Shown here piece after piece: positions 1 through 18,248 of a stretch of DNA of 64,000 nucleotides. Source of the DNA: Geomonas azotofigens (GTDB lineage Bacteria > Desulfobacterota > Desulfuromonadia > Geobacterales > Geobacteraceae); contig NZ_JAHLME010000003.1 of NCBI RefSeq assembly GCF_018919395.1, positions 744,001 to 808,000 on the forward strand. The letters run 5' to 3'. The translations under genes and the position numbers were made by a program. Every line of letters starts with the position of its first letter. The stretch's first letter is position 1. The notes below the pieces were generated by a model. The model ran no database searches and was not told where the DNA came from. It was given only the letters and a program-made list of their open reading frames with translations.

Positions 1-152
1 CCCCGTGGTCGGCCGGCTTCCTGTGCGTTCTTGTCGCTGCGGCCGCCTCGGCGGCGGGAGCGCTCTACTACATCTTCGTCGTCGCTCGCGACAACGAGAT
101 CGTCGCCTATAACCCGCAGACCTTCCTCGAGGAGAGGCGCAGAATCGGATGA
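1..152 (+). CDS. C-terminal end of a membrane protein (partial)
   Basis: Reading in the frame that ends at the TGA of 150-152 gives about 49 residues with no stop. They contain one hydrophobic segment (FLCVLVAAAASAAGALYYIF) followed by a short charged tail ending RRRIG. The stop overlaps the ATG of the next gene as ATGA, so the two are probably translationally coupled. The 5' end lies outside the window. The fragment is too short to assign a family; the tail after one helix would fit the last segment of a polytopic or single-span membrane protein encoded in the same operon as the radical SAM and Mo-enzyme genes. Confidence 0.6.
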   Translation, partial: PWSAGFLCVLVAAAASAAGALYYIFVVARDNEIVAYNPQTFLEERRRIG

Positions 153-1471
153 AGACACCTCCCGAACAGATAATCAGGGAAACGCAGAGCGTCTGCCCCG
201 TATGCCTGGCCCAATTGCCGGCGGTGATCTACGAGACCCGCGACGGCGAGGTGCACATGTCCAAGGAGTGCCCGGTCCACGGCCCCTGCGACGTCTACCT
301 CTGGCCGGACGCCGAGCGGTATCGCTGGCATGCCGGCATGGGGCTCCCCTCGTTCACCCGCGCCCCGCAGACCGACACCCGGAACGGCTGCCCGCTCGAC
401 TGCGGACTGTGCCCCGGGCACGAGCGCAGCATCACCCTCCCCGAGGTGGAGGTGACCTGGCGCTGCAACCTCTCCTGCCCCGTCTGCTTCATGTTCGACG
501 GCGAGGTCCCGGCGGATCCTTCCCTTGAGGAGTTGCAGTCGATGTTCGCGTCGATTGTTGCCATCGATGGGCAAAATCTGCCCATCCAGCTCACCGGGGG
601 AGAGCCGACGGTCCGCGACGACCTGGACGAAGTGATACGGCTCGCCCGCCGCTGCGGCCTGGTTGCCGTGGAGCTAAACACCAACGGCCTGGTGATCGGC
701 CGTGACCGTGACTACCTGCGACGGCTGAAGGATGCCGGCTTGACCGACGTCTATCTCCAGTTGGACGGGCTCGATCCGGAAACGACGGTGCAACTGCGCG
801 GCAGGGACGTCTTCGCCGGGAAGATGCAGGCCATCGAAAATTGCCGCGCCGAGGGGATCCCGGTGGTCCTCTCCGTCGCCGTCGTCAGCGGGGTGAATGA
901 CGGAGAACTGGGGGGACTGATCCGCTTCTGCATGGACAACCTAGACGTCGTCAAGGGGCTGGCCCTGCAGCCGGCCTTCCACTCCGGGAGATTCGAGGTG
1001 GGAGACGCCGTCAGGCGACTCTCCCTGGCGGACGTGGCGCAGCTCGTGTCCCGGCAGAGCCGCGGCAGGATCGAGCCGGGCGATTTCTGGCCGGTGGCGA
1101 GCAGCCACCCCTTGTGCTACGGCTCCACCTTCCTGGTCGGGAAGGGGGAGGACTACCACCCGTTCACCCGCGGCCTCGGGGAAGAGGAGTTCCGCAGCCT
1201 GCTGGACCGCAGGAGTCCGCAGGGAGCCGCCTACAGCGACGTCATCGCCGGTCTGACCGGCGAGACCGGCTCCGCCGTCGGGCTCCCCATCCTGATCATG
1301 GAATACATGGACGCCTGGACCATGGATCTGGAGCGGGCCCGGGGGTGCAACCTCGCGGTAACCGTGGCCGACGGCAGGGCGATCCCGTTTTGCGTGTACC
1401 ACCTGACCGACGCCGTCGGCAACAGGCTGCACCCGCACGGGGGAAGGGGGCGTCATGGCCGATGTGCGTAG
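149..1471 (+). CDS. Radical SAM protein, tetraether-lipid-synthase (Tes/MJ0619)-like
   Basis: 440 residues. The canonical radical SAM CX3CX2C motif is CNLSCPVC (C106, C110, C113), followed by an LTGGEPT motif for SAM binding. Before it lie a CPVC knuckle (C16, C19) with later cysteines (C41, C47), and a second cluster CPLDCGLCPGH (C81, C85, C88). This layout of an N-terminal metal knuckle, a CxxDCGxCxxH cluster and then the radical SAM motif is what I recall of the archaeal tetraether synthase family, which couples lipid chains by C-C bonds. The substrate here is unknown. The start overlaps the upstream stop (ATGA), and the 3' end overlaps the Mo-enzyme gene by 17 bases, implying joint expression. 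Family placement is by motif recall, so the function is tentative. Confidence 0.75.
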   Translation: MKTPPEQIIRETQSVCPVCLAQLPAVIYETRDGEVHMSKECPVHGPCDVYLWPDAERYRWHAGMGLPSFTRAPQTDTRNGCPLDCGLCPGHERSITLPEVEVTWRCNLSCPVCFMFDGEVPADPSLEELQSMFASIVAIDGQNLPIQLTGGEPTVRDDLDEVIRLARRCGLVAVELNTNGLVIGRDRDYLRRLKDAGLTDVYLQLDGLDPETTVQLRGRDVFAGKMQAIENCRAEGIPVVLSVAVVSGVNDGELGGLIRFCMDNLDVVKGLALQPAFHSGRFEVGDAVRRLSLADVAQLVSRQSRGRIEPGDFWPVASSHPLCYGSTFLVGKGEDYHPFTRGLGEEEFRSLLDRRSPQGAAYSDVIAGLTGETGSAVGLPILIMEYMDAWTMDLERARGCNLAVTVADGRAIPFCVYHLTDAVGNRLHPHGGRGRHGRCA

Positions 1472-4145
1472 GGCCAACTGCCAGTTGTGCGGCTATTTCT
1501 GCGGGGTGAAGGTCACCACCGACGGGGCCGGACGGATCACCGCGGTGCGCCCCGACCCCGAGCGCTACCCCTACGACCCCGCGGTGATGGCCGGCTGCCG
1601 GCGCTTCGCGGCGAACCTGGAGATCCTCAACCACCCGGCGCGCATCAACCATCCCCTGAAGCGCTCTGGCAAACGCGGCAGCGGAAAATGGGAGCGGGTC
1701 ACCTGGGAGCAGGCGCTGGCCGAAATCACGGGGAGGCTGCAGGAACTGAAAGGTGCCTACGGCGCCGAGACGCTCGCCACCTGCATCAGCGCCCCCCACA
1801 CCGTCTACTGGCCGATGCACCGCTTCCTGAACCTTTGGGGCTCCCCCAACAACATTGGCATGGGGATCGTCTGCTGGAACCCGAGGATCTGGGTCAACAC
1901 GCTGACGTGCGGCTGGCCCGTCGACGACGAGCTGCAGCCCGGACTGACCCGGTGCGCCATCATCTGGGGCGTCAACCCCGCCCAGTCGGACCGCTCCGTG
2001 TTCTGGAAGAACCTGCACGCCTTCGCCAAGGGGGGAGGCAAGCTGGTGGTCGTAGATCCGCGCCGCACCGAGACGGCGCGGCTGACCGACGACTGGGTGT
2101 CGGTCCGGCCGGGAACCGACGGCGCGCTGGCGCTGGCCATGCTGCACGTCATCCTGGCCGAGGGGCTTGAGGACCGCGACTTCGTACGCGACTGGTGCTC
2201 CGGCTTCGATGCCTTGGCGCAGCGGGTGCGGCAATACCCTCCCGAATGGGCCGCGTCGATATGCGGTGTACCGGCGGCCGAGATCCGGCGCATCGCGCGG
2301 CTTTACGCCGGGTCGAAACCCGCATCGATCTACACCGGGCTGGGCATCGACCAGAGCGGGCTGAACTGCACGCAAACCCTGAGGACCATCGCCATCCTGC
2401 GGGCCGTCACCGGCAACATCGATCTGCCCGGCGCCTCGCTTATGAACGACGGCTCCGACTTCGTTTCCGAAGTGGAGTTGGAGCTGAACCACCTGATGCC
2501 CGAGGAGCAAAAGCGCAAGAAACTGGGCGCCGGACTCTTTCCGCTGCAGCGGCACGAGGGGTACCGGAAGATGCTCGAATCGACCATGCGCCACGGCAAG
2601 CAGTTGCCGGCACGGTACATGACCTCGGCCCACCCCGGCCTCGCTTGGCAGGCGATGATCAGCGGCGATCCCTACCCGATCCGCGCGCTGATCTGCATGG
2701 CGAGCAACCCGATGCTGTGCCAGGCCGACACCAGGAAGGTGCATCGGGCGCTTTCCGGCCTCGACCTGCTGGTCACGCTGGAGAAGTTCCTGACTCCCAC
2801 GGCGATGCTGGCCGATTACGTCCTGCCGGTGACCGGCGGCTTCGAGCAGCCGGTGGTCCAGATGAACGGCGGGGTGGCCAACATCCTTTACGGCGGCGAA
2901 GCGGCGATCAGGCCGCTTTATGAGCGCCGCACCGACTTCGAATTCTGGATGGAGCTGGGCAAGCGCTTGGGACAACAGCGGTACTGGCCCTGGGAAACCC
3001 TGTCGCACGCCATGGACGATATCCTGTCTCCCACCGGGCTCACCTGGGGCGAGTTCTGCGAAACCGGCCTCTATGCACCGGAGCCGGCGTACCTGAAATA
3101 CCTGGAATCCGGTTTCGCGACTCCCAGCGGCAAGGTGGAGCTCTATTCCTCGCTGCTGGCCGAGGCGGGACACGATCCGCTCCCTTCTTTCCGGATCACC
3201 CCCGATCCCGGCGACGCGGGGGAATTGCAGTTGATCACCGGGGTGCGCAGGCAGCCTTATTACTCCTCCGAGTTTCGCCAGGTGGAGAGTCTGCGCCGGC
3301 GGCGCCCGGAGCCTCTCGCCGAGATGGCCGCCGAAACCGCCGCTTCGCTTGAGTTGAACGACGGCGATCTCGTCTGGATCCAGACCGCGAAGGGGCGCAT
3401 CCGTCACCGTCTGCGCATAAAGGAGATGTACCCCGGCACGGTAAGCGTCGAGCTGGGGTGGTGGTTCCCGGAACGGGCGGCAGCGGAACCGGAGCTGGGC
3501 GGGGTTTGGGAGGCCAACGCCAACGTGCTCACCTCCGCCGACGTCGACCACTGCGACCCTATTCTCGGCCAGTGGAGCTTCCGCGGCATCCCCTGCCGGG
3601 TCTACCGGGCCCTGGACCTGGAGAGAACCGAGGTGCGCCAGGCCGGAGCGCAGGATTGGGCGGGGGTAATGGAACTCCTTGCGGCCAGCGACATGGACTG
3701 CTCCGCGGTTCCAGTCGAGGAGTTTTTCGTTCTTGTGCAGGGGCTGGAAATCCTGGCGGCGGTGCGCCTGGAGGAAGGTAGCGACTCCGTCATGATACGC
3801 CCCATCGTCGTCGCCGACGGCTATCGCGGCCAGGGGGGCGGGCGGCATCTGCTGGAGCGGGTCCTCCCCCGGCACACGGCGACCCTTCTGGTGGCGCGGG
3901 GCGGGGCGGTGGATTTCTACACGAGGCTCGGCTTCACGAGAACTTCCTGGAACGGTATCCCCTCGCATCAGGTGGAGGAGTGCAAGGTTTGTCCGGACAG
4001 GCAGGCTTGCTCGCCGCTTCCGCTGGTGCGGTACCCGGTTGCGGCCCCCTCCGAGGGGCAATCCCCGGCCCCTTACCGTACCGGCCGCGATCCGGGAGCG
4101 TCGTCCGAAGAGCCCGGCGCCGCGCGGGGGGGCGCATGCGGTTGA
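1455..4145 (+). CDS. Acetylene-hydratase-like Mo/W-bisPGD oxidoreductase with C-terminal GNAT domain
   Basis: 896 residues. The N-terminus holds a [4Fe-4S] site, C9-x2-C12-x3-C16 with C48. The molybdopterin oxidoreductase body and dinucleotide-binding domain run to about residue 715. Several stretches match my memory of Pelobacter acetylene hydratase (RFLNLWGSPN, ATPSGKVELYSS, ILSPTGLTW), and C140 falls where that enzyme has its metal ligand C141. However, the catalytic Asp13 position is Gly here, so acetylene hydration is doubtful. There is no Tat signal, so the enzyme is probably cytoplasmic. Residues about 720-860 form a GNAT domain with the acetyl-CoA loop RGQGGG and a tail CKVCPDRQAC reminiscent of ArsN2-type acetyltransferases. 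The nearby MobA and MobB suit a bis-MGD cofactor. The substrate is unknown. Confidence 0.85.
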   Translation: MADVRRANCQLCGYFCGVKVTTDGAGRITAVRPDPERYPYDPAVMAGCRRFAANLEILNHPARINHPLKRSGKRGSGKWERVTWEQALAEITGRLQELKGAYGAETLATCISAPHTVYWPMHRFLNLWGSPNNIGMGIVCWNPRIWVNTLTCGWPVDDELQPGLTRCAIIWGVNPAQSDRSVFWKNLHAFAKGGGKLVVVDPRRTETARLTDDWVSVRPGTDGALALAMLHVILAEGLEDRDFVRDWCSGFDALAQRVRQYPPEWAASICGVPAAEIRRIARLYAGSKPASIYTGLGIDQSGLNCTQTLRTIAILRAVTGNIDLPGASLMNDGSDFVSEVELELNHLMPEEQKRKKLGAGLFPLQRHEGYRKMLESTMRHGKQLPARYMTSAHPGLAWQAMISGDPYPIRALICMASNPMLCQADTRKVHRALSGLDLLVTLEKFLTPTAMLADYVLPVTGGFEQPVVQMNGGVANILYGGEAAIRPLYERRTDFEFWMELGKRLGQQRYWPWETLSHAMDDILSPTGLTWGEFCETGLYAPEPAYLKYLESGFATPSGKVELYSSLLAEAGHDPLPSFRITPDPGDAGELQLITGVRRQPYYSSEFRQVESLRRRRPEPLAEMAAETAASLELNDGDLVWIQTAKGRIRHRLRIKEMYPGTVSVELGWWFPERAAAEPELGGVWEANANVLTSADVDHCDPILGQWSFRGIPCRVYRALDLERTEVRQAGAQDWAGVMELLAASDMDCSAVPVEEFFVLVQGLEILAAVRLEEGSDSVMIRPIVVADGYRGQGGGRHLLERVLPRHTATLLVARGGAVDFYTRLGFTRTSWNGIPSHQVEECKVCPDRQACSPLPLVRYPVAAPSEGQSPAPYRTGRDPGASSEEPGAARGGACG

Positions 4146-4552
4146 AAGAAGGAGATCGCCTGAGGATAAGCGACATGGGCCGGATACTCGGCATCAGCAC
4201 CAGAGCCATCAGGCTGTACGAGGAGCTGGGACTGGTGGCACCACCCAAGCGGACCGAGGGACGGATCAGGTACTACGAGAAGAGTGACGAAAGGCGCTTC
4301 AAGTTCGTGCTGAAGCTGAAGGCACTTGGACTTTCGTTGGAGGAGATGAAGGAACTGGCGGACCTCTGCAGACACGAACGGTTCCCGGCGCAGCCCGCAC
4401 CGCGTCTTTTGGAAGTGCTGGACGGCCACCTGGCCGGGATCCGGGACCGGGTAGAGAAGCTCAAGTCGCTGGAAACCGACATCTGCGATTTTCGCAAGCA
4501 GGTGGGGGGCGATCATGGGGAGTGCACGCTGGTACAAAGGAGAAAGTTATGA
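4136..4552 (+). CDS. MerR-family transcriptional regulator
   Basis: 138 residues from the ATG at 4136, which overlaps the end of the oxidoreductase gene. A longer in-frame extension exists but runs through that gene and is not needed. The N-terminal winged HTH is recognisable (RISDMGRILGISTRAIRLYEELGLV, about residues 9-33), followed by the RYYEKSDERRFKFVLKLKALG segment and a long dimerisation helix. Cysteines at the C-terminal side (LCRHERF, DICDF) could bind metal, but there is no classical MerR metal-site spacing. It is embedded between the Mo enzyme and a DUF2064 gene (ATGA overlap), so it probably regulates this operon; the effector is unknown. Confidence 0.85.
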   Translation: MRLKEGDRLRISDMGRILGISTRAIRLYEELGLVAPPKRTEGRIRYYEKSDERRFKFVLKLKALGLSLEEMKELADLCRHERFPAQPAPRLLEVLDGHLAGIRDRVEKLKSLETDICDFRKQVGGDHGECTLVQRRKL

Positions 4553-5373
4553 AGAAAAACGCCCTGCTGTTGTTCACCAAGTATCCCCAACCCGGGGTGA
4601 CCAAAACCCGGCTCATCGAGGAGAACGGCGGCGCCCTGACGCCGGAACAGGCCGCCGAACTTTACCGGGCGATGGTCCTGGACACCGCCGAAGTCGGACT
4701 GCATGCCCTGGAGCGGTGCCGCGGATCCCGTAACGCCGCCTACGACCTCTACGTGTCGTCTTCCCCCGAGGAGGATCTCCCCAAGGTCGAGGCCATGTTT
4801 CGCTCCGCCTTCCCCCGCGCCGAGATCGGCTGCATCTGCGACAGGGGGAGTAATTTCGACGAGCATTTCAACGACAGCTATCGGCAGCTGTTCGCCAAAG
4901 GGTACGACTCGGTGATCTGCATCGGCGGGGATCTCCCCTGCATAACGCCCGACCTGATCGTCCGCTCCTTCGACTGGCTCACGGCCAACGATGCCGCCTC
5001 TTCGACCGGGGCCATGGTGTTGGCGCCGTGTCAGGCCGCCGGCGTTTCCCTGGTCGGCGTCACCAGGAGCGCCGGAGTCGACTTCACCGGTGTCTTTTAC
5101 AATACCGCCGGTGTTTCCGCACTCGACGCCCTGATACAGATCGCGCAGGGGAGGGAAATCCCCACCGCGCTGTACGAGGCCCTGTTCGACGTCGACTACA
5201 TGGAGGATCTGGCCCACATCATGGCGGTGATCAACGCGACGGCCTACACGGCGCAGCACCAGCCGGAGATCAAGGTTCCCGAAAGGACCAGCACGCTGAT
5301 CGCGCAACTGGGATTGGTGACCAGCACCCCCCCCAACACCTCCCACGACCCAAGGAGCAGGATCGATGGTTGA
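4549..5373 (+). CDS. DUF2064 / TIGR04282-type GT-A nucleotidyl- or glycosyltransferase-like protein
   Basis: 274 residues. The start at 4549 overlaps the MerR stop as ATGA and has AAAGGAG just upstream. The N-terminus LLLFTKYPQPGVTKTRL is the hallmark of DUF2064 proteins, a GT-A fold family related to CofC-type nucleotidyltransferases. The segment ICIGGDLPCITPDLI supplies the usual metal/nucleotide-binding aspartate region. The C-terminal ~100 residues are less typical. The position inside a molybdopterin-enzyme operon suggests a role in modifying a cofactor or small molecule, but no substrate can be read from sequence. The end overlaps the following ferredoxin-DUF169 gene by 8 bases. Confidence 0.8.
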   Translation: MKKNALLLFTKYPQPGVTKTRLIEENGGALTPEQAAELYRAMVLDTAEVGLHALERCRGSRNAAYDLYVSSSPEEDLPKVEAMFRSAFPRAEIGCICDRGSNFDEHFNDSYRQLFAKGYDSVICIGGDLPCITPDLIVRSFDWLTANDAASSTGAMVLAPCQAAGVSLVGVTRSAGVDFTGVFYNTAGVSALDALIQIAQGREIPTALYEALFDVDYMEDLAHIMAVINATAYTAQHQPEIKVPERTSTLIAQLGLVTSTPPNTSHDPRSRIDG

Positions 5374-6337
5374 TATCGATTTCGACCTGGAAAGATGCAG
5401 TCGCTGCGGCCTTTGCGCCGAGCTCTGTCCCAAGGAGGTCTTCTCCTTCGAGGCCGGAGCGGTACCGGGCGTGGTCCGTGCCGAGGAGTGCTGCGCCTGC
5501 ATGACCTGCTCCGGTAAGTGCCCGAGCGGCGCCTTAACCGTCTCCGAGCGGGAGCCGGCGCACCGGTACCTCGACGGCGGTAACGAGAGCGCCTTCGTGC
5601 CGCTCTCCGAGGCAGAGGTGGCGCAGTACGTTTCCCTGTCGGAGACCCTCGAGGAAATCCTCATGCTGCGCTCGAAGCCGGTGGCCATCACCCTGATCCG
5701 CGCGGGGGAGCCGCTGCCGCATCTGCCCGTCCCCCGGCACAGCCTGCGCTACTGCCAGGCGCTCATAATGGCCAGGCGCGGCATCACGACGCTCATGCCG
5801 GCTGAGTCCCACTCCTGTCCGGACGGCGCGTCCATACTCGGCCTGGGCAAGGTGCCGCGCAAGCTGGCGACGGGGGAGATCTACGTGCAGTTGGGTAAGC
5901 TCGCCACGAAAGAGGTGGCGCGGCAGATGGTGGCAGAAAGACCCGCCCTGCCGGAGGGCTCCATGCGGGCCACTCTTTTGACCCCGCTGGCCAAACCGGT
6001 TATGACCCCCGACGTGGTGGCGGTGATTGCGCCTCCCGAGACCGTCATGTGGCTGTGCATGGCCTCGACCTACTTCACCGGGAAGAGGTCGAGCTTTCAG
6101 ATGAGCTCGTACAACGCCCAGTGCGTCGAGACCACCCTGTATCCGTACACCACGGGGGAGATGAACACCTCGCTCGGCTGTTACGGCTGCCGCGCCATCT
6201 CGGATCTGGGGGAGGAGATGATGTTCATCGGCATCCCCCTGAAAATGATGCCGACCTTGATCGAGGGGCTGCGCCATCTGGGCAAGAAGGCGATCAGGGA
6301 TTGCCGCGCCAAGGTCTACCTGCCGCCGCTTGTCTGA
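5366..6337 (+). CDS. Ferredoxin-DUF169 fusion protein
   Basis: 323 residues. Residues about 8-65 are a two-cluster ferredoxin: CSRCGLCAELCP and CCACMTCSGKCP each give CX2CX2CX3CP for a [4Fe-4S] cluster. The remainder matches the DUF169 family of anaerobes, with several conserved cysteines (SCPDGAS, CYGCRAISDLGEE). DUF169 has no settled function; the fused ferredoxin suggests electron transfer. Overlap with the upstream gene argues for co-translation. It could act as electron carrier for the Mo/W oxidoreductase or the radical SAM enzyme, which is inference from neighbourhood only. Confidence 0.85.
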   Translation: MVDIDFDLERCSRCGLCAELCPKEVFSFEAGAVPGVVRAEECCACMTCSGKCPSGALTVSEREPAHRYLDGGNESAFVPLSEAEVAQYVSLSETLEEILMLRSKPVAITLIRAGEPLPHLPVPRHSLRYCQALIMARRGITTLMPAESHSCPDGASILGLGKVPRKLATGEIYVQLGKLATKEVARQMVAERPALPEGSMRATLLTPLAKPVMTPDVVAVIAPPETVMWLCMASTYFTGKRSSFQMSSYNAQCVETTLYPYTTGEMNTSLGCYGCRAISDLGEEMMFIGIPLKMMPTLIEGLRHLGKKAIRDCRAKVYLPPLV

Positions 6338-6384: not shown

Positions 6385-6756
6385 GTGAAACTCGCGGAGA
6401 TACTGGCAGGAAAAAAGTTGGCGGCACGCTCCAAGGTCTGGCTTGAGCTCGACGGCCACCCTTTCTTCGGCGAGGGGCGCTACATGGTGCTCAGAACCAT
6501 CGAGCGCCAAGGGTCGCTGGCCAGGGCTTCCGAGGAGACCGGCATCCCGTACCGCAGGATGAGGGGCGCGATCTATGCGATGGAGCGGGCCATCGGGGTT
6601 CCGCTGGTGGTGAGATCGCGCGGAGGGGCATCGGGAGGGGGCGCCGCGCTGAGCGAGGCGGCGCGCGAGCTGATGCGGCTGTTCGAAAAACAGGAAGAAG
6701 GGATCCGGGAGAGGGTGAACCAACTGCACCGCCTGGCTTTCGGAGAGCAGGGTTGA
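6385..6756 (+). CDS. ModE-like N-terminal HTH protein without molybdate-binding domain
   Basis: 123 residues from a GTG at 6385 preceded by GAGGTG. The sequence (WLELDGHPFFGEGRYMVLRTIERQGSLARASEETGIPYRRMRGAIYAMERAIGVPLVVRS, shown in part) is the LysR-like winged HTH of ModE, including the GGASGGGAALSEAARELM segment that ends that domain. Full ModE (about 260 residues) carries two C-terminal MOP/TOBE domains that bind molybdate; they are absent here. Such short ModE proteins are common and may sense metal through a partner or not at all. It sits immediately ahead of moeA, so regulation of the Moco genes is the obvious inference. Confidence 0.85.
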   Translation: MKLAEILAGKKLAARSKVWLELDGHPFFGEGRYMVLRTIERQGSLARASEETGIPYRRMRGAIYAMERAIGVPLVVRSRGGASGGGAALSEAARELMRLFEKQEEGIRERVNQLHRLAFGEQG

Positions 6757-6781: not shown

Positions 6782-7975
6782 ATGATCAGTATCTATGAAG
6801 CACAACAAGTCATCTTGCAACATGTGGCCCCGCTTCCCCGGGAGGAGATCGATCTGCTGCAGGGGCTGGGCAGGATCATCGCCGAGGACGTCGCGGCACC
6901 CTGGGACGTCCCCACCGCCGATAATTCCGCGATGGACGGCTACGCCTTTTCCCACGAGTCGCTCCAGAGCAACCGCCTGAAGGTGACCGGCTTTCTCCCG
7001 GCGGGGATGAAAAGAAGCACCCCGGTCCTGGCTGGAGAAGCCATTAAGATCATGACCGGCGCCCCCATCCCGTCCGGATGCGACACCGTCGTACCTATCG
7101 AGGAGGTCGTCGATTTGGGCGATGAGATCAGGCTGCAGGGGGACGTCAAGCCGGGCGCCCACGTCAGAAGGAGGGGAGACACCATCCGGGAGGGGGAAGT
7201 GGTGATCGCCGCCGGAACCACGCTGCACGCGTCGCAAAGCGGGCTGCTGGCCTCGCTGGGGCGCACCCGGGTCGCCACCTATGGCAGGCCCAGGGTCGCC
7301 GTCATCGCCACCGGCGACGAACTGGTCGAGGCCGGCTCCGTGCCGGAGGGGGCCGCGGTGGTCAACAGCAACAGCCACAGCATCGCCATGCAGATCCTGG
7401 AAGCCGGAGCCGAGCCGGTCGTCCTTGGCATCGCCAGGGACACCAGGGAGGCGACCCGCGAGATGCTGCTGCGCGGCCTCGAGGCCGACGTCGTCATCAC
7501 CAGCGGCGGTGTTTCGGTGGGCGATTGCGACTACGTCAAGGAGGTGGTCGAGGAACTGTCGGGAGAGCTCCTGTTCTGGAAGGTGAACATCAAGCCGGGC
7601 AAGCCGACCGCCTTCGGGATGTTGCGCGGCAAGCCGTTCTTCGGACTCCCCGGCAACCCGGTCGCCACTATGATCGCCTTCGAGCAGTTCGTCCGTCCCG
7701 CCCTGCTGAAAATGATGGGACATGTCTCCCTGTTCAGGCCTGTGGTCAGGGCCACCGTGACTGAAGGGTTTCGTAACGACGGCGAGCGCCCGCACCTGGT
7801 GCTTTGCCGGCTCGCCGCGCAGGAGGGGCGGCACGTCGCCTCGATCAGCAGGGCCCAGGGCTCGTCCAACCTCCTCACCATGGCGCGGGCCAACGGGGTG
7901 ATCGAGGTCGCCCCGGGTGGCTGCCTCGTGCCGGAGACGGAGATCGAGGTGACGCTGCTGACCGGCCGCGTCTAG
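6782..7975 (+). CDS. moeA: Molybdopterin molybdenumtransferase MoeA
   Basis: 397 residues, the normal length. MoeA inserts molybdate (or tungstate) into adenylylated molybdopterin in the cytoplasm. Recognisable motifs are DNSAMDGYAF near residue 47, VPIEEVV, the ATGDELVEAG segment, the MoCF-biosynthesis motif TSGGVSVGDCDYVKEV and GLPGNPVATM in the MoaB/Mog-like domain. A C-terminal domain IV follows. AGGGAG-like bases precede the ATG. It is followed 9 bases later by moaA. In a genome with both Mo and W enzymes this copy may be dedicated to the local oxidoreductase; that is inference. Confidence 0.95.
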   Translation: MISIYEAQQVILQHVAPLPREEIDLLQGLGRIIAEDVAAPWDVPTADNSAMDGYAFSHESLQSNRLKVTGFLPAGMKRSTPVLAGEAIKIMTGAPIPSGCDTVVPIEEVVDLGDEIRLQGDVKPGAHVRRRGDTIREGEVVIAAGTTLHASQSGLLASLGRTRVATYGRPRVAVIATGDELVEAGSVPEGAAVVNSNSHSIAMQILEAGAEPVVLGIARDTREATREMLLRGLEADVVITSGGVSVGDCDYVKEVVEELSGELLFWKVNIKPGKPTAFGMLRGKPFFGLPGNPVATMIAFEQFVRPALLKMMGHVSLFRPVVRATVTEGFRNDGERPHLVLCRLAAQEGRHVASISRAQGSSNLLTMARANGVIEVAPGGCLVPETEIEVTLLTGRV

Positions 7976-7984
7976 AGAGGTTTT

Positions 7985-8965
7985 ATGCTGATCGATACTT
8001 TTGGCAGGAGGATCAACTACCTGCGTCTCTCCATCACCGACCGCTGCAACCTGCGCTGCTCGTATTGCATGCCGGCGCATGGCATCGAGGGGAAGCGCCC
8101 GGCTCGCGACGTGCTGAGCTACGAGGAACTCCGGGAAATCACGCAGGCGGCGGTGGAAATCGGCGTCGAAAAGGTGCGCATCACCGGCGGAGAGCCCCTG
8201 GTCAGGAAAGGGGTGGTCCCTTTTCTCGCCGGGCTGAGCGCCATTGCCGGCCTCAAGAAGCTCGTCCTCACCACCAACGGCATGATGCTTGAGGAAATGG
8301 CCCGGGACCTGAAACTGGCGGGCGTGGAGAGCATCAACATCAGCCTGGACTCGATGCGGCCGGAGGTTTTCAGGAAGATCACCAGGGTCGGCGAGCTGAG
8401 CAGGGTGCTGGCGGGGGTCGAGGCGGCCGAGCGCGTCTTCCGCCACGTTAAGATCAACGTGGTGGTGATGAGAGGCGTCAATGACGAGGAGGTGCTGGAT
8501 TTCGCCGCCCTGACGCTGGATAAGCCGATCAACGTCAGGTTCATCGAGTACATGCCCACCACCAGGGAATCCGGCTGGCGCAGCCTGATGGTGAGCGGGG
8601 GCGAGATCCTGACCAGGCTCTCGCACCGCTTCCGGATCGAGAAAGAGGTCAGGGACTCCCTGGAGGGGCCGGCGGTCAACTACCGGATCAAGGGGGCTGC
8701 GGGCAAGGTGGGTTTCATCACCCCGATCTCCCAGCACTTCTGCCAGAGCTGCAACCGCCTGCGGGTCACGTCGTCCGGCATGGTCAAGAGCTGTCTGTTC
8801 GAAGAGCAAACCGTGAACCTGAAGCCGTACCTGGCGGCCGGGGACCAGGCCGGCCTCAGGGAAGCCCTGGCGGGAGTCGCGCGCAGCAAACCGTCACAGC
8901 ACGCCTTCCTGGTCCCGGGCAGCGCCGACAGCCAACGCTTCAGCATGTCGCAGATAGGCGGCTGA
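7985..8965 (+). CDS. moaA: GTP 3',8-cyclase MoaA
   Basis: 326 residues. MoaA converts GTP to 3',8-cyclo-GTP, the first step of molybdopterin synthesis. The radical SAM motif CNLRCSYC (C21, C25, C28) lies near the N-terminus, with TGGEPLVRK for SAM binding. The C-terminal substrate-cluster motif CQSCNRLRV...CLF is present, and the protein ends in the invariant GG needed for activity. AGAGGTTTT lies before the ATG. It follows moeA in the same direction and frame of expression. All catalytic elements appear intact. Confidence 0.96.
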   Translation: MLIDTFGRRINYLRLSITDRCNLRCSYCMPAHGIEGKRPARDVLSYEELREITQAAVEIGVEKVRITGGEPLVRKGVVPFLAGLSAIAGLKKLVLTTNGMMLEEMARDLKLAGVESINISLDSMRPEVFRKITRVGELSRVLAGVEAAERVFRHVKINVVVMRGVNDEEVLDFAALTLDKPINVRFIEYMPTTRESGWRSLMVSGGEILTRLSHRFRIEKEVRDSLEGPAVNYRIKGAAGKVGFITPISQHFCQSCNRLRVTSSGMVKSCLFEEQTVNLKPYLAAGDQAGLREALAGVARSKPSQHAFLVPGSADSQRFSMSQIGG

Positions 8966-9098
8966 GACGGTCATGGGGAAGGGGCCTGCAGGCGGGTAGC
9001 GGCGAGGTAGCGTGTATGGCGACGCAGCAGCGCGTCGGGGCGGATGCAGGTGGCAAGATTACCCGAGAGCAGGTTTCTGCCGGGAAAGGAGGCATCAG

Positions 9099-9542
9099 AT
9101 GACGGGACGAGTGAGAGCCGTCTGTACGAGCCGCAACAAGGGGGAGCGTAAGACGCCGGTTCCCTCCGTGGAGGTCGTCGAGGACCACGGGATCGAGGGG
9201 GATGCCCACGCCGGAGTATGGCATCGGCAGGTGAGCCTGCTGGCCATGGAAAGCATTGAGAAGATGCGGAAACTGGGGCTATCGGTCGACACCGGTGATT
9301 TCGCCGAAAACATCACGACCAGCGGCATCGAGTTGCCGACGCTGCCCATCGGAACCCGGCTGAAGGTCGGGGAAACGGTACTGGAAGTGACCCAGATCGG
9401 CAAGGAGTGCCACACCCGCTGCGCCATCTACCATCAGGCCGGCGACTGCGTCATGCCCAAGGAGGGGATCTTCGCCAGGGTCGTGTCGGGCGGGCGTATC
9501 AGCGCCGGTGATGTGGTGGAAATCATGGGAGGTGCGTTATGA
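9099..9542 (+). CDS. MOSC-domain protein
   Basis: 147 residues from the ATG at 9099, which has a strong AAAGGAGG at 9086-9093; a longer upstream extension lacks such a site. The protein is a single MOSC domain: GIEGDAHAGVWHRQVSLL near residue 28 and the conserved cysteine region IGKECHTRCAIY. MOSC domains bind Moco/sulfur and, in bacteria, small ones often accompany Moco genes; the precise reaction is unsettled. Its stop overlaps the transporter start (ATGA), linking it to metal uptake. The 133 bases between moaA and this gene show no recognisable riboswitch. Confidence 0.88.
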   Translation: MTGRVRAVCTSRNKGERKTPVPSVEVVEDHGIEGDAHAGVWHRQVSLLAMESIEKMRKLGLSVDTGDFAENITTSGIELPTLPIGTRLKVGETVLEVTQIGKECHTRCAIYHQAGDCVMPKEGIFARVVSGGRISAGDVVEIMGGAL

Positions 9543-10741
9543 GCCGATTTCATTTCACCCTGCAGGAGTTTTCCGGGGCTCTGGCGGACCTCGGGGTAAT
9601 GGTGCCGCTGGTCATTCTGCTGATCGTCAAGAACGGCATGAACCCGACCGCCATCCTGGTCGTGGCCGGTCTGCTCTACATCGTCAGTGGCGTCGTCTTC
9701 CGGGTTCCGGTTCCCGTTCAGCCTTTGAAGGCGGTCTCCATCATCGCCATCGCCTCCGGACTGGCGCCCAGCGTCATCGCGGCAGCCGGCATCATCATGG
9801 GAGGCATTTTGCTGCTCTTCTCGGTGACCGGCGTCTCGGCCATGCTGTCCAGGATTTTCTCCCGGGCCATCGTCCGGGGGATCCAACTGGGAGTCGGCGT
9901 GCTCCTGGTGGCCAACGGCGTCAAGATGATCGTCGACCCCAAGTTCCTGCGCGGAGGTGAGACCGCGGTTGTGCGCCTGGCCGGACTGGACGTGCCGATG
10001 GGGGTCCTCTTCGCCATAGCAGGCGCAGCCGTAGTGATCATTTTCTCCTCCAGTCGCCGGCTCCCGGCCGCCCTCGCGCTGATGTTATTCGGGATAGCAT
10101 CGGGTCTGTACTTCGGCTCCTACACGGCCTTGCACAAGGTAGTCCTGGCGCCCACGCCGATCACCCTGGCATTCCCGACCGCGGAGGATTTCACCAAGGC
10201 CTTCTTTCTCCTTGTGCTGCCGCAGCTTCCGCTCACCTTCGGCAACTCGATCGTCGCCACCGCCGACACCGCCAGGGCCTATTTCGGCGCCCGTGCCTGC
10301 GGGCTCACTCCGGGACGGCTTTCCTTGTCGCTCGGGGTTACCAACCTCATTGCCGGCGTGGTGGGAGCGGCTCCGCTTTGCCACGGGGCTGGAGGGATGT
10401 CCGCTCATTACCGGTTCGGAGCACGCAGCGGCGCCATGGGGGTGATGCTCGGCGGCTGTCTGGTGCTAATCGGCGCCCTGTTCGGCAGGTCTGCGCCCGA
10501 CCTGTTCGTGCTGCTCCCCCCCTCGATACTGGGCGTCATGCTGGTGTTCATCGGGGTGGAACACGCCATGCTCATGCAGGACGTCGTCGATTCGCGCAAG
10601 GATCTTTTTATCACCCTGGCCATCGGGACCATCGCGGGCACCACCGCCAACATCTTCGCGGCGACGGCGATCGGCTTCTTTCTCGTCATCCTGTTCAAGG
10701 CCGCCTCTGCCGGCGGAGCCTACACCGAATCGGCGACCTGA
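9539..10741 (+). CDS. MOT1-type molybdate/sulfate transporter
   Basis: 400 residues, about ten hydrophobic segments, inner membrane. The motifs LQEFSGALADLGVMVPLVIL near the N-terminus and PVPVQPLKAVSIIAI match the MOT1 family (PF16983) of molybdate transporters related to SulP but lacking the STAS domain. The second repeat contains TFGNSIVATADTARAYFG and LCHGAGGMSAHYRFGARSG, also typical. The ATGA overlap with the MOSC gene and placement among Moco genes support molybdate (or tungstate) uptake. No ABC-type modABC is present in the window, so this may be the local metal importer. Confidence 0.88.
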   Translation: MSRFHFTLQEFSGALADLGVMVPLVILLIVKNGMNPTAILVVAGLLYIVSGVVFRVPVPVQPLKAVSIIAIASGLAPSVIAAAGIIMGGILLLFSVTGVSAMLSRIFSRAIVRGIQLGVGVLLVANGVKMIVDPKFLRGGETAVVRLAGLDVPMGVLFAIAGAAVVIIFSSSRRLPAALALMLFGIASGLYFGSYTALHKVVLAPTPITLAFPTAEDFTKAFFLLVLPQLPLTFGNSIVATADTARAYFGARACGLTPGRLSLSLGVTNLIAGVVGAAPLCHGAGGMSAHYRFGARSGAMGVMLGGCLVLIGALFGRSAPDLFVLLPPSILGVMLVFIGVEHAMLMQDVVDSRKDLFITLAIGTIAGTTANIFAATAIGFFLVILFKAASAGGAYTESAT

Positions 10742-10783
10742 ACGCGCGCGCCGGCGTAATTTACGGCAATTCCGGGGGAGACC

Positions 10784-11266
10784 ATGCATCTGAACCATTT
10801 TGACGAAGCCGGCCGCGCGGTAATGGTCGACGTGACCGCGAAACAACCCTCGTTACGAACGGCTGTAGCCGCTGCGAAGGTCACCATGCGGCGCGACACC
10901 CTGGCGAAGATAATCGAAGGGGCGACCGCCAAGGGGGATGTCCTTGCGGTTGCCCGGCTGGCCGGGATTGCCGCCGCGAAGAAGACGCCCGAGCTCATTC
11001 CCTTGTCGCACCCGCTGGCGATTCATGCGGTGAGCGTGGACTTCACAACCGAGCTGGAGGCCGGCACGGTCCGGGTCGAAAGCACGGTGAAGGCCTTCGA
11101 ACGCACCGGGGTGGAAATGGAGGCGATGGTCTCGGCCTCAGTTGCCGCCCTGACCATCTATGACATGTGCAAGGGGATCGAAAAGGGAATCGAGATCACC
11201 GAGACCGTGCTTCTCTACAAAGAGGGCGGAAAAAGCGGCGTTTACCGCAGGGAAGGGGAGCGATGA
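10784..11266 (+). CDS. moaC: Cyclic pyranopterin monophosphate synthase MoaC
   Basis: 160 residues, normal length. MoaC rearranges 3',8-cyclo-GTP to cyclic pyranopterin monophosphate. The signature region GVEMEAMVSASVAALTIYDMCK is intact, as is the conserved lysine region KGDVLAVARLAGI. The usual LIPLCHPL motif reads LIPLSHPL here, a Cys-to-Ser change at a conserved but, as far as I know, non-catalytic position. GGGGGAG precedes the ATG. The stop overlaps the mobA start as ATGA. Confidence 0.95.
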   Translation: MHLNHFDEAGRAVMVDVTAKQPSLRTAVAAAKVTMRRDTLAKIIEGATAKGDVLAVARLAGIAAAKKTPELIPLSHPLAIHAVSVDFTTELEAGTVRVESTVKAFERTGVEMEAMVSASVAALTIYDMCKGIEKGIEITETVLLYKEGGKSGVYRREGER

Positions 11267-11856
11267 CGCTCTTCGATGACATCACCGGCGTCATCCTGGT
11301 CGGAGGGAAAAGCCGCCGCATGGGGAGGGACAAGGCCTTCCTGGAGCTTGGCGGCAGGACGCTCTTCGAAAGGATCCTGGATGCCTTCCGCGCCAACTTC
11401 AGCAGGATCATCCTGGCGGGAAACGAGGGAGAACGTTTCGCCCGCTACCGGTTGCCGTTCTACGACGACCTTTTCCCAGGCAGCGCCCTGGGCGGTCTCT
11501 ATACCGGATTGCATTATGCCGAGACCGATACGGTCTTCGTCTCGTCTTGCGATCTTCCCTTTCCCTGCAGCCGCGTTATCGGTCACCTCTGCTCCCTGAC
11601 CGGCAACAGCGACGCCGTGGTGCCGAGGCTCGCCCACGGATACGAACCGCTCCACGCGGCCTATTCGAGGAGTTGCCTGGCGCCGGTGCGAGAGATGCTC
11701 CAGGCGGGCGAGTACAGCGTCCTGGATCTCTACCCCCGCATCGGCGTGAGGGATGTCCCCGAAAGCGAACTGGAGGCGGCGGGAGCGGGGCTGGACGCTT
11801 TTCTGAACGTAAACACGCCGCAGGATTACGAGGCGGCGAAGAGGAGATGCCTATGA
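11263..11856 (+). CDS. mobA: Molybdenum cofactor guanylyltransferase MobA
   Basis: 197 residues from the ATG at 11263 that overlaps the moaC stop; the longer upstream frame is inside moaC. The nucleotide-binding loop LVGGKSRRMGRDKAFLELGG is diagnostic, followed by PGSALGGLYTGL and the metal-binding SSCDLPFP. MobA attaches GMP to Mo-molybdopterin to make the bis-MGD cofactor of the DMSO reductase superfamily, matching the oxidoreductase encoded at the start of this run. The RBS AAGGGGAG overlaps the end of moaC. Confidence 0.94.
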   Translation: MTLFDDITGVILVGGKSRRMGRDKAFLELGGRTLFERILDAFRANFSRIILAGNEGERFARYRLPFYDDLFPGSALGGLYTGLHYAETDTVFVSSCDLPFPCSRVIGHLCSLTGNSDAVVPRLAHGYEPLHAAYSRSCLAPVREMLQAGEYSVLDLYPRIGVRDVPESELEAAGAGLDAFLNVNTPQDYEAAKRRCL

Positions 11857-12407
11857 AAAAGCCTGTAGTGTCAATCGTGGCGAAGAGCGGGACAGGGAAA
11901 ACGACGCTTCTGGAAAAGCTGATCGCGGAGCTTAAGCGCCGCGGCTATCGGGTGGGGGCCGTCAAGCACGATGCGCATGAATTCGACATTGACCGTCCGG
12001 GCAAGGATTCCTGGAGACTGACCCAGGCCGGGGCCGACACCATGCTGGTGAGTTCTGCCGCCAAGGTGGCCATGGTCAGGCAGAACCCGGCCTGCCGTGA
12101 ACCCTCATTACAGGACCTGGTAGCTTCGTACTGCCACGACTTGGACATCGTGCTGACCGAAGGGTTCAAAAAGAGCGGCTTTCCCAAGATCGAGGTGCAC
12201 CGAAAGGAGCGTAGCGCAGCACTTTTGTGCCGTGGCGAAGAACATGATCCCACCCTGATCGCCGTTGCTTCGGATCAGCCTTGGGCACTGGACGTCCCGG
12301 TGTTCGATATCGACGACGCCGGCGGCATCTGTTCCTTTCTGGAGCGGGAATTCCTGCGCGGCGGACCGGAATGCTCAGCGGATGCGGGGGCGGCTGAGGT
12401 CGCATAG
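11853..12407 (+). CDS. mobB: Molybdopterin-guanine dinucleotide biosynthesis adaptor MobB
   Basis: 184 residues. Of two close ATGs (11847, 11853) I chose 11853, which forms an ATGA overlap with mobA and has GAGGAG seven bases upstream. The P-loop AKSGTGKTT near residue 9 and KHDAHEFDIDRPGKDSWRLTQAGAD are typical of MobB, a GTP-binding protein that assists MobA. The DIVLTEGFKKSGFPKIEVHR segment is also characteristic. It completes the bis-MGD part of the Moco set. The C-terminal ~15 residues (CSADAGAAEVA) look like a non-conserved tail. Confidence 0.93.
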   Translation: MKKPVVSIVAKSGTGKTTLLEKLIAELKRRGYRVGAVKHDAHEFDIDRPGKDSWRLTQAGADTMLVSSAAKVAMVRQNPACREPSLQDLVASYCHDLDIVLTEGFKKSGFPKIEVHRKERSAALLCRGEEHDPTLIAVASDQPWALDVPVFDIDDAGGICSFLEREFLRGGPECSADAGAAEVA

Positions 12408-13510: not shown

Positions 13511-14704
13511 ATGGAAAAGATATTTTTATGCACCGCTTTCAAGCTTTGCGACAACAACGGCTACCTCACCACTCAGCTCTCCAACTTCTTCAAGTCCAAC
13601 AGCGTCGAACTGGTGAGGGACCCGGAAGAGGCCGACACCATCGTGATCACCACCTGCGGCTTTGATCAGGAGCGGGAGAACGAGTCGACAGCGCTCGTCA
13701 ACCAGTATCTGCGGCAATACCGAGGCGAAAAGAAGGTCATAGTGTCCGGCTGCCTCACGAAGATCAATCCCGAAGCCTTCGACTCCGGCGTCAACCTGAT
13801 CGGAAACAAGGAACTGCACCTGTTCAACGAACGCTTCGGTGCGACCACAAGCATAGATGACGTTTCCGGCGGCGATCTCTCCGACGAGTTCATCAGCAGC
13901 GAGTACGGGTTCGTCGACGCCTACTACATCCAGATCTGCCAGGGGTGCGTCAACAACTGCAGCTACTGCGCGATCAAGAAGGCGAAAGGCCACGTGGCGA
14001 GCAAGCCGATCGAGGTGATCCTTCGCGAAGTGGAGCGGGGCATGAAGATGGGCTTCACCCGTTTCATGCTGCTCGGCGACGACTGCGGCAGCTACGGCGC
14101 TGACCTCGGGGTCAACCTGGCGCAACTGCTGAACAGGCTGATCCCCTACGACATCCGGGTCCTCATCAACTACCTGGAGCCGGGAAGGTTTCTCTCCCTC
14201 TACCCACGCATCGATGTCGCCGCCCTGGAGATGATCGATTTCATGAACGTTCCGGTCCAGGCGGTATCCAGGCGCATCATCAGGCTTATGAACCGCAACT
14301 ACGACGCGCACTGGGTGATGGAGACCGCCCGCCAGCTGAAGGAGAAATTCCCGGCTCTGTACCTGGAGACCCACGTCATCTTCGGCTTTCCAGGGGAGAC
14401 GAGGGAGGAGTTCCGGGAGACGCTGCGGCTGGCGGAGATCTTCGATGCCGTCATCTATTTCCGCTACACCGACAGAAAGGGGGTGAAGTCGGCCGAGCTC
14501 CCGGGCAAGGTTTCCGAGCAGGAGGTGGAGCTGAGGATCGAAGAGATCGTTCGGCACCCGAGATTCGCCTGGAAGCAGCAGGACGCCGCCCCTCCGCTGG
14601 TGCTGCTGGGATACGGGCCGGAAACCTCCGAACTGTTCCAAAGGCTCGGTCTGCAGGATGAGGGCAAGGCCGCTGTGGCGCGGGACGGGGCTCATGCATC
14701 CTGA
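13511..14704 (+). CDS. MiaB/RimO-like radical SAM protein lacking a TRAM domain
   Basis: 397 residues. The N-terminal ~110 residues are a UPF0004-type domain with cysteines at C7, C13, TTCGF and SGCLTK, which in methylthiotransferases hold the auxiliary [4Fe-4S] cluster. The radical SAM motif is CVNNCSYC (within QGCVNNCSYCAIKKAKG), followed by LLGDDCGSYG. The C-terminal TRAM domain of MiaB/RimO is replaced by a short unrelated tail. Compact homologues of this type are found in anaerobes and may modify other substrates. AGGGGGC precedes the ATG, and the gene follows the OYE gene by 9 bases. The substrate is unknown. Confidence 0.8.
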   Translation: MEKIFLCTAFKLCDNNGYLTTQLSNFFKSNSVELVRDPEEADTIVITTCGFDQERENESTALVNQYLRQYRGEKKVIVSGCLTKINPEAFDSGVNLIGNKELHLFNERFGATTSIDDVSGGDLSDEFISSEYGFVDAYYIQICQGCVNNCSYCAIKKAKGHVASKPIEVILREVERGMKMGFTRFMLLGDDCGSYGADLGVNLAQLLNRLIPYDIRVLINYLEPGRFLSLYPRIDVAALEMIDFMNVPVQAVSRRIIRLMNRNYDAHWVMETARQLKEKFPALYLETHVIFGFPGETREEFRETLRLAEIFDAVIYFRYTDRKGVKSAELPGKVSEQEVELRIEEIVRHPRFAWKQQDAAPPLVLLGYGPETSELFQRLGLQDEGKAAVARDGAHAS

Positions 14705-17195: not shown

Positions 17196-18248
17196 ATGTC
17201 AGAGCAGGTATTTGAAAACGCAGCCGCGGCCCGTTGCGCGGCGGCCGACCGGGAACCTTCCCCCAAGGCGGGTGGCAGCTGCAGTATCGAGATGTTTCCG
17301 CTCCACCAGCGGCGGGCGCTCGCCCGGATCCACGGCGAGATCCTCGACAAGTTCTTCGGCTGCGGCTCGCCCATCCCTGCGGCCATAGAAGGGTGCACGG
17401 TACTCAACCTAGGCTGTGGCACCGGCCGTGACGTCTACCTCGCCTCCCAGTTGGTGGGGGCGGAGGGACTGGTGATCGGGATCGACATGCGCAACGACGA
17501 GTTCGAGCGCTACGTCGCGACGCAGCTGCCCGGCCTGGACGGCACCCTGTTCGGCTGCGAGGGCGACGAGGAGCAGCTTGACGTAGCGCGCAGGCATGTC
17601 GGTTTTCACATGGACTGCTTCGGCTTTGGCAGGCCGAACGTCGAGTTCCGGTACGGAGCTCCGGAGGATCTGGCCCGCTGCGGCATCGCCGCCGAAAGCC
17701 TCGACCTTGTCGTTTCCAACTGCGGGGTCAACCTCTCGCCCGACAAGGAGCGCCTGTTGAACGAGGTGTACCGTGCTCTCAAGCCGGGCGGGGAGTTTTA
17801 CTTCGCCAACATCTTCAGCTCACGGCCGATCCCAAGCGGACTGCGGATGGATCACGAGTTTTATGCCGAATGCTACGGAGGAGCCCAGACGCTGGAGGAT
17901 TTCTCGACCCTGCTGAGGCGGGTCGGGTTCAGGGACTATCTGGTGGTATCCAAGGAGCGTCTTGAGCCGTCCAACCCTCGCACCGCTGCAAAAGCTCGGG
18001 GGATCGATTTCTATTCCATGAAAGTGCGGCTGTTCAAGGTTGGGGATGACGCGGAGGAGTGCGGGGAGTCAGGCTGCCTCGCGGAGTACCTCGGAACAAT
18101 CCCGGAACTGCCGGATGAGATTGCCCTGGACCAGGACCACCTTTTCATCACCGGGAGACCGGTCAGCATCAGCGGCCGCGTTGCCGCCATACTTCGCGGA
18201 ACCCGGTACGCCAGACACTTTCGGGTGAACGGCAATGACACCCGGTGA
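17196..18248 (+). CDS. Divergent ArsM-like SAM methyltransferase (paralogue 1)
   Basis: 350 residues, clearly homologous to the next gene. The SAM-binding motif is LNLGCGTGRDVYLAS, and the conserved ArsM cysteines occur in VSNCGVNLS and AECYGGA. Differences are notable. The N-terminal NACC pair is reduced to GGSCS, the VKEYYG helix is missing, and about 26 residues (around RNDEFERYVATQLPG to LFGCEGDE) are inserted between the strand-2 acidic motif (GIDM) and the following helix (EQLDVARRHV). As(III) methylation needs several thiols, so activity may be altered. It may be a specialised arsenical methyltransferase or partner of ArsM; GAAGGA precedes the start. Confidence 0.8.
   Translation: MSEQVFENAAAARCAAADREPSPKAGGSCSIEMFPLHQRRALARIHGEILDKFFGCGSPIPAAIEGCTVLNLGCGTGRDVYLASQLVGAEGLVIGIDMRNDEFERYVATQLPGLDGTLFGCEGDEEQLDVARRHVGFHMDCFGFGRPNVEFRYGAPEDLARCGIAAESLDLVVSNCGVNLSPDKERLLNEVYRALKPGGEFYFANIFSSRPIPSGLRMDHEFYAECYGGAQTLEDFSTLLRRVGFRDYLVVSKERLEPSNPRTAAKARGIDFYSMKVRLFKVGDDAEECGESGCLAEYLGTIPELPDEIALDQDHLFITGRPVSISGRVAAILRGTRYARHFRVNGNDTR

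Follow-up and report, generated by a model that had tools for sequence, protein, structure and literature searches.

A molybdenum or tungsten enzyme fused to an acyltransferase domain

The DNA analysed here (the window) is a stretch of 64,000 nucleotides from Geomonas azotofigens (GCF_018919395.1, contig NZ_JAHLME010000003.1, positions 744,001 to 808,000). Close to its start, a single open reading frame (ORF) joins a body of the acetylene hydratase (AH) branch of bis-molybdopterin guanine dinucleotide (bis-MGD) enzymes to a GNAT domain. The gene and its parts, found by ORF, domain and PDB searches, are as follows.

1455..4145, + strand: fusion gene, AH-branch bis-MGD body plus GNAT domain, 896 residues
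1473..3605, + strand: AH-like body, residues 7–717, with cluster ligands C9, C12, C16 and C48, metal ligand C140 and Gly13
3636..4025, + strand: GNAT domain, residues about 728–857, acetyl-CoA loop RGQGGG at residues 791–796 (PF13508, AlphaFold model, PDB fold matches)
3981..4010, + strand: conserved cysteine tail, C843-x2-C846-P-x4-C852 (alignments of 7 and 26 rows)

The ORF starts with ATG and has no internal stops. Pfam recognized three domains in the protein: Molybdopterin (residues 63–504, 118.1 bits, cut-off 24), Molydop_binding (591–699, 58.3 bits, cut-off 26.8) and Acetyltransf_7 (PF13508; 755–828, 31.1 bits, cut-off 27). The first two, together with the N-terminal cysteine cluster motif, place the body in the dimethyl sulfoxide reductase (MopB) superfamily. 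Its best solved relative in both sequence and fold is acetylene hydratase (PDB 2E7Z), which matches residues 7–717 with an E-value of 1.7e-113 and 383.7 bits; the runner-up scored 186. An earlier note, drawn up from the letters of the window, had assigned the body to the AH branch and named the five cysteines as ligands, and the alignment bears this out: C9, C12, C16 and C48 pair with the conserved AH cluster cysteines 9, 12, 16 and 46, and C140 with the metal ligand Cys141.

The GNAT loop follows the motif R/Q-x-x-G-x-G/A, and the C-terminal region carries it as RGQGGG. Modelled alone with AlphaFold from a 7-row alignment, this region folded confidently (mean predicted local distance difference test score 86.6) and matched GNAT folds in the PDB, so that the structure prediction that the note had recommended agrees with PF13508. 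The cysteine tail is also present as described, with all three cysteines invariant in both alignments.

The same architecture was found in genome G068 (locus L055; 71% identity to the window protein) and, at 61% identity and with DUF2064 as a third domain, in genome G171, an assembly of 8.9 Mb listed at 8% contamination. Locus L055, like L054 discussed below, comes from a metagenome-assembled genome. In the GNAT core, the comparison of the window with L055 gave a pN of 0.296 and a pS of 0.826, the latter saturated, indicating purifying selection. Because the fusion recurs in G068 and G171 and its GNAT domain is under purifying selection, it is neither a chance event nor an assembly slip; its presence in three assemblies rules out a frame or assembly artefact. 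The AH-like body is thus confirmed to be fused to the GNAT domain in ORF 1455–4145.

Distribution of the fusion

We searched for the fusion in three samples. Among the matches listed for 97 relatives, the query was covered past residue 800 only in the window's genome and in G068. In 395 genomes of the window's phylum (E ≤ 1e-120, two candidates scored per genome) this was so only in the window's genome and in G171, and no match past residue 800 was obtained from 197 genomes of Coriobacteriia, the class of G494 (E ≤ 1e-150, four candidates scored per genome). The fusion is therefore uncommon, in line with the note, whose author knew of no characterised enzyme of this kind.

A contig scan, of which 80 of 561 confirmed loci were kept, returned L055 as fused and L054 as two overlapping genes. 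L054 had been a candidate fusion, as a tblastn match reached query residue 858. We rejected it, since its AH frame ends in a stop and an overlapping gene of its own encodes the GNAT. The overlap is 14 bases in L054 and 17 bases in G459, where the two genes are likewise separate. In G171 the single protein of 1173 residues (L153:6602–10123) comprises the AH-like body, GNAT and DUF2064. A single-sequence contig scan gave eight pattern matches, none of which was confirmed. Matches occurred in 1,210 plasmid records; in 19 of them the coverage of the query was 80% or more, each time with an identity of less than 60%. A Sphingobium plasmid match reaching residue 789 was discarded, its C-terminus consisting of FAD-binding, NAD-binding and 2Fe-2S domains.

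The AH tree groups the unfused L054 and G459 proteins with those of the window and L055 at a support of 0.365, and the GNAT tree unites the three fused forms at 0.634. These trees, which do not separate a single from a repeated origin of the fusion or from later splitting, and the short gene overlaps are in keeping with a passive fusion, in which a stop was lost between overlapping operon genes with neither channelling nor joint catalysis. Purifying selection on the GNAT domain and the addition of a third member in G171 speak against such an accident, which we regard as somewhat unlikely.

Fourteen other relatives (L020–L033, e.g. L020:1477–4884) carry an AH-like body of 33–35% identity within proteins of 1066–1143 residues. 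Their C-termini resemble cysteine desulfurase; in L020, the one that was scanned, Pfam placed Aminotran_5 at residues 751–1114.

The active site departs from that of acetylene hydratase

Active-site positions are numbered as in 2E7Z throughout. Positions 14, 48, 113, 140, 142, 293 and 606 are our own choice of sites that we presume to be relevant. A 2025 review (PMC12096430) names positions 9, 12, 13, 16, 46, 141, 179 and 472; it describes Asp13 as particular to the AH subfamily and indispensable, its Ala variant being inactive.

The cluster cysteines and the Cys141 ligand are conserved in the window body; other positions are replaced: Asp13 by Gly, Ile14 by Tyr, Met140 by Val, Ile142 by Trp, Trp179 by Arg, Trp293 by Thr and Trp472 by Gly. 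The pocket tryptophans 179 and 472 are thus both absent. Among the 15 nearest homologues from the contig scan, position 13 is Gly in 14 and Ser in one, and Cys141 and Trp142 are kept in all 15. Asp occurred at column 13 in 2 of 100 aligned related proteins, several rows of which are gapped there; these two are L106 and a protein at position 9137 of L120, the latter of 24% identity and with its cluster cysteines unaligned.

Because Asp13 is replaced in the window body and in the clade members compared, and pocket residues of the window body are altered, the body is, by the Asp13 test, no acetylene hydratase but a distinct subfamily of the AH branch, as judged from the alignments. We accordingly reject acetylene hydratase function. 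In AH numbering, the subfamily is marked by Gly13-Tyr14 and Cys141-Trp142. The Gly13 signature was read in the aligned sequences and in G073, G077 and G084, a narrower set than all genomes counted by score, and one without the partial gene in L067.

A conserved set of five genes

The genes around the fusion lie on the same strand. Gene calls came from a home-made caller, which performed plainly poorly in L207 and L208.

149..1471, + strand: radical S-adenosylmethionine (SAM) protein with an N-terminal HMPTM-type zinc ribbon, overlapping the fusion gene by 17 bases (Pfam Radical_SAM, Zn_ribbon_HMPTM)
4175..4552, + strand: MerR-family regulator (Pfam MerR_1, longer frame 3980–4552 scanned; start from the gene caller)
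4549..5373, + strand: DUF2064 (TIGR04282-like) nucleotide-diphospho-sugar-transferase-like protein, GT2064 (PF09837 43.6 bits, frame 4522–5373 scanned)
5366..6337, + strand: two-cluster ferredoxin domain plus DUF169 (PF02596 183.3 bits, Fer4)
6385..6756, + strand: ModE-type molybdate-responsive regulator domain (TIGR00637 66.1 bits, under the cut-off of 98.5)
6782..12407, + strand: molybdenum cofactor genes for MoeA, MoaA, MOSC, a molybdate transporter (MFS_MOT1) and MoaC (Pfam), and for MobA-like and MobB-like proteins (named by sequence resemblance)

The radical SAM protein fell short of both the TrsS (NF045646; 363.8 bits, cut-off 490) and the Tes (NF045702; 302.8 bits, cut-off 450) families of NCBIfam, and its best PDB match is the tetraether synthase 7TOL (E = 1.8e-79). 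GT2064 scored 84.7 bits to TIGR04282 (cut-off 134); its sole PDB match is 3CGX, a putative nucleotide-diphospho-sugar transferase (E = 3.3e-8). G068 shares the gene order of the window, cofactor genes included, with a different gene of 191 codons in place of MerR.

Two side observations concern the flanks. Positions 13511–14704 encode a MiaB/RimO-like methylthiotransferase (213.5 bits, family cut-off 251). Its relatives adjoin DUF169 in G171, are 3.4 kb away from that gene in G459 and occur downstream in G068, so the methylthiotransferase may belong to a wider set. Upstream of the window, L051 (G000:C12:724201–744100) contains genes that, judged by eye, encode a molybdenum hydroxylase and its accessory proteins; next come a further AH-like molybdenum subunit, a ferredoxin of the 4Fe-4S type and a membrane protein resembling nitrate reductase gamma, and then the cassette.

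A set of five genes (the cassette), encoding the radical SAM, AH-like, GNAT, DUF2064 transferase-like and DUF169 proteins, recurs in anaerobic bacteria of several kinds and seems to form an undescribed pathway. In 15 of 16 loci, all but L063, at most one gene separates the radical SAM gene from the AH-like gene. A cassette GNAT lies within the stretch examined around the AH-like gene in six of them (L054, L055, L064, L065, L084 and L088), and whole-genome searches recovered a cassette-type GNAT, recognized by its cysteine tail, a BLAST match and mostly also the GNAT tree, in 15 of the 16 genomes. The L062 genome gave only one GNAT match, which is located at the end of a contig and looks NAGS-like. 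The earlier note had taken an end of homology at about residue 715 as grounds for refutation. Nearly all matches listed do end there, but 14 of the 15 unfused genomes encode a cassette-type GNAT separately, five near the AH-like gene and nine elsewhere in the assembly; eight of these nine are beside DUF2064, DUF169 or both. The GNAT of L084 (L084:16201–17430), counted among the five, itself shares a protein of 409 residues with a metallo-beta-lactamase domain that by eye resembles PhnP; the gene lies beside one resembling flavin reductase.

Among the 97 relatives, all five families have their closest copies in the same five genomes, even where these copies are scattered. There the AH-like subfamily scores at least 787 bits (best elsewhere 383, among the matches listed), and the GNAT (E ≤ 1e-12) and DUF169 (E ≤ 1e-25) each occur in exactly these five. 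The five top radical SAM matches (at least 388 bits, next 260) and the eight top DUF2064 matches (at least 104 bits, next 56) are within them as well; at the thresholds used, these two families are wider, with some match in 28 and 27 of the 97, respectively. In the phylum sample, G000, G171 and G459 top both the AH and the GNAT lists (ten candidates scored per genome in the GNAT search), and weaker GNAT matches (at most 66 bits) occur in 66 other genomes, NAGS-like by eye in the seven loci viewed. The GNAT was present in all 13 Coriobacteriia genomes with the AH-like gene. Five further genomes of that class have a related GNAT (94–126 bits) and no AH-like gene at E ≤ 1e-150, and in three of them the neighbors resemble, by eye, genes of coenzyme A (CoA)-dependent degradation. 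The link from AH-like gene to GNAT is therefore firm and that from GNAT to AH-like gene looser.

Molybdenum cofactor genes adjoin the set not only in the window but also in G068, L057–L059 and others. The five genes might instead build a modified molybdenum or tungsten cofactor or serve in maturation of the AH-like enzyme; the GNAT would then acylate that protein or an intermediate of the cofactor. The resemblance of DUF2064 to nucleotidyltransferases would suit such a role, as would the zinc ribbon (PF23545) of the radical SAM protein, whose family we take to be pterin-modifying. Cofactor genes, however, neighbor many molybdenum enzymes, and we know of no such cofactor variant; we consider this explanation improbable.

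The GNAT domain and the question of arsenic

ArsN2 (NF040501) is the top NCBIfam match of the window GNAT (E = 1.8e-8, residues 22–135 of the scanned domain), at 34.1 bits against a curated cut-off of 125. The G068 domain and the G073 protein scored 28.2 and 12.4 bits. To the PRK07757 N-acetyltransferase family (NF005840, cut-off 154) the window, G068 and G073 scored 28.4, 40.3 and 31.7 bits, also far below the cut-off. The kinship with ArsN2 that the note had read from the cysteine tail is thus weak, and we do not count the domain as ArsN2: the C-x2-CP-x4-C tail is shared with short GNATs of other genomes that are NAGS-like (ArgA-like), a label given by eye to L158–L164 and L183, and the fold matches of the model are headed by NAGS. 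In the GNAT tree the cassette GNATs separate, on a long branch, from the five NAGS-like rows. Because those of the relatives score higher for PRK07757, we take the window GNAT to belong to a group of its own that, its relatives included, appears nearer to NAGS-like proteins than to ArsN2.

The note had also pointed to arsenic genes 13 kb downstream, and candidates do lie there:

17196–18248 and 18288–19346: a pair of ArsM-like methyltransferase genes, of which the first diverges more (146.7 and 209.5 bits, ArsM cut-off 263)
19384–20211: MIP channel

With these genes 13–16 kb from the fusion and ArsN2 as best NCBIfam match, the GNAT could be an ArsN2-like detoxifier and the body could act on an arsenic compound. 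G073 offers some support: between its GNAT and AH-like genes is a protein of 1039 residues (L047:7179–10298) with radical SAM, ArsM-like methyltransferase (203 bits to NF008823, cut-off 263) and DUF5714 domains, and about 30 kb away lies an ArsM-like and MIP pair, 68% and 67% identical to that of the window. Against this stand the low ArsN2 scores, the higher PRK07757 scores of the G068 and G073 GNATs, and the 16 cassette loci, where the stretches examined yielded no ArsM-like gene. We therefore rejected an arsenic operon, the G073 case notwithstanding, and consider it very improbable and, on balance, not supported that the fusion itself acts on arsenic.

A possible biosynthetic pathway

We tentatively favor a reading in which a cytosolic bis-MGD oxidoreductase of the AH branch and a GNAT acyltransferase are steps of one undescribed anaerobic pathway with a five-protein core, of a biosynthetic kind. 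The Tes/TrsS-type radical SAM protein, which would make or break a C–C or C–H bond, and the molybdenum or tungsten enzyme would together modify a small substrate, either in its carbon skeleton or in its redox state. Electrons may come from the ferredoxin of the DUF169 protein. The GNAT would then acylate an amino group, as its fold leads us to infer, and the nucleotidyl- or glycosyl-transferase-like DUF2064 protein might attach an activated group. The order of these steps is conjectural. The fusion would join two of them.

For the body, a redox reaction seems more likely than hydration, since Asp13, which hydration needs, is gone, a ferredoxin–DUF169 protein is the partner of the body, and the related catechol dehydroxylases are reductive according to PMC7028382. 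The reduction or hydration followed by acylation that the earlier note had sketched may occur, but one two-step enzyme would not be required, because most of the related genomes examined encode body and GNAT apart. More doubtful is the specific proposal that the five genes are an undescribed biosynthetic line to an N-acylated small molecule or cofactor, of which the window would have the molybdenum or tungsten and acylation steps, and G171 three steps, in one polypeptide.

An alternative is a degradative or respiratory function, in which the body would reduce, e.g. dehydroxylate, an aromatic or other small substrate, and an amine in that substrate or its product would be acylated by the GNAT. 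PMC7028382 reports catechol dehydroxylases as most closely related to AH, and many loci have, close by, another AH-like gene together with genes for a ferredoxin and a membrane protein (Pfam NrfD in L060). A gene near the G073 cassette (L047:1431–3137) encodes a sigma-54 activator that has both XylR_N and V4R, a combination associated with the sensing of aromatics, although XylR_N was absent from the sigma-54 regulators scanned in L059 and L060. Some of the 13 Coriobacteriia genomes hold around 100 first-look molybdenum enzyme candidates. These points speak for degradation, as do the related GNATs of three other genomes, whose neighbors resemble CoA-dependent degradation genes. A Tes-type radical SAM protein and a DUF2064 transferase are unusual among degradation genes. 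We consider degradation rather unlikely and prefer the biosynthetic line, taken as a whole, to it and to cofactor maturation.

For some of the "acetylene hydratase-like" proteins of anaerobes, so far without assignment, this defines a subfamily with an active-site signature and named partners, which makes function approachable by knockout of a small gene set. DUF169 and a group of DUF2064 proteins gain a firm functional context, and similarity to AH is by itself no proof of acetylene hydration.

Comparison with known systems

The enzyme types involved, namely AH-like, GNAT and radical SAM, are known ones. In the literature searched, the subfamily, the fusion within it and the gene set appear undescribed. 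We recognized no description of the fusion or the five genes there, and Haft and Tolstoy (2025), cited for TrsS in PMC13188914, may cover some of it. ArsN2 arsenic-resistance N-acetyltransferases are matched by the window GNAT only weakly by profile, and no arsenic neighbors were found in the 16 cassette loci; G073 is the counterexample described above. Short NAGS-like GNATs of the PRK07757 or ArgA type stand apart from the cassette GNATs in the tree. Tes, the tetraether lipid synthase, and TrsS are the best PDB and NCBIfam matches of the upstream radical SAM protein, which scores below both family cut-offs. The catechol dehydroxylases of Eggerthella and Gordonibacter are likewise described as bis-MGD enzymes of the AH branch, and as reductive; the available part of PMC7028382 mentions no GNAT fusion. 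Acetylene hydratase of Pelobacter acetylenicus shares the cysteine ligands with the window protein, which differs from it by Gly13, the changes in the pocket and the added GNAT domain.

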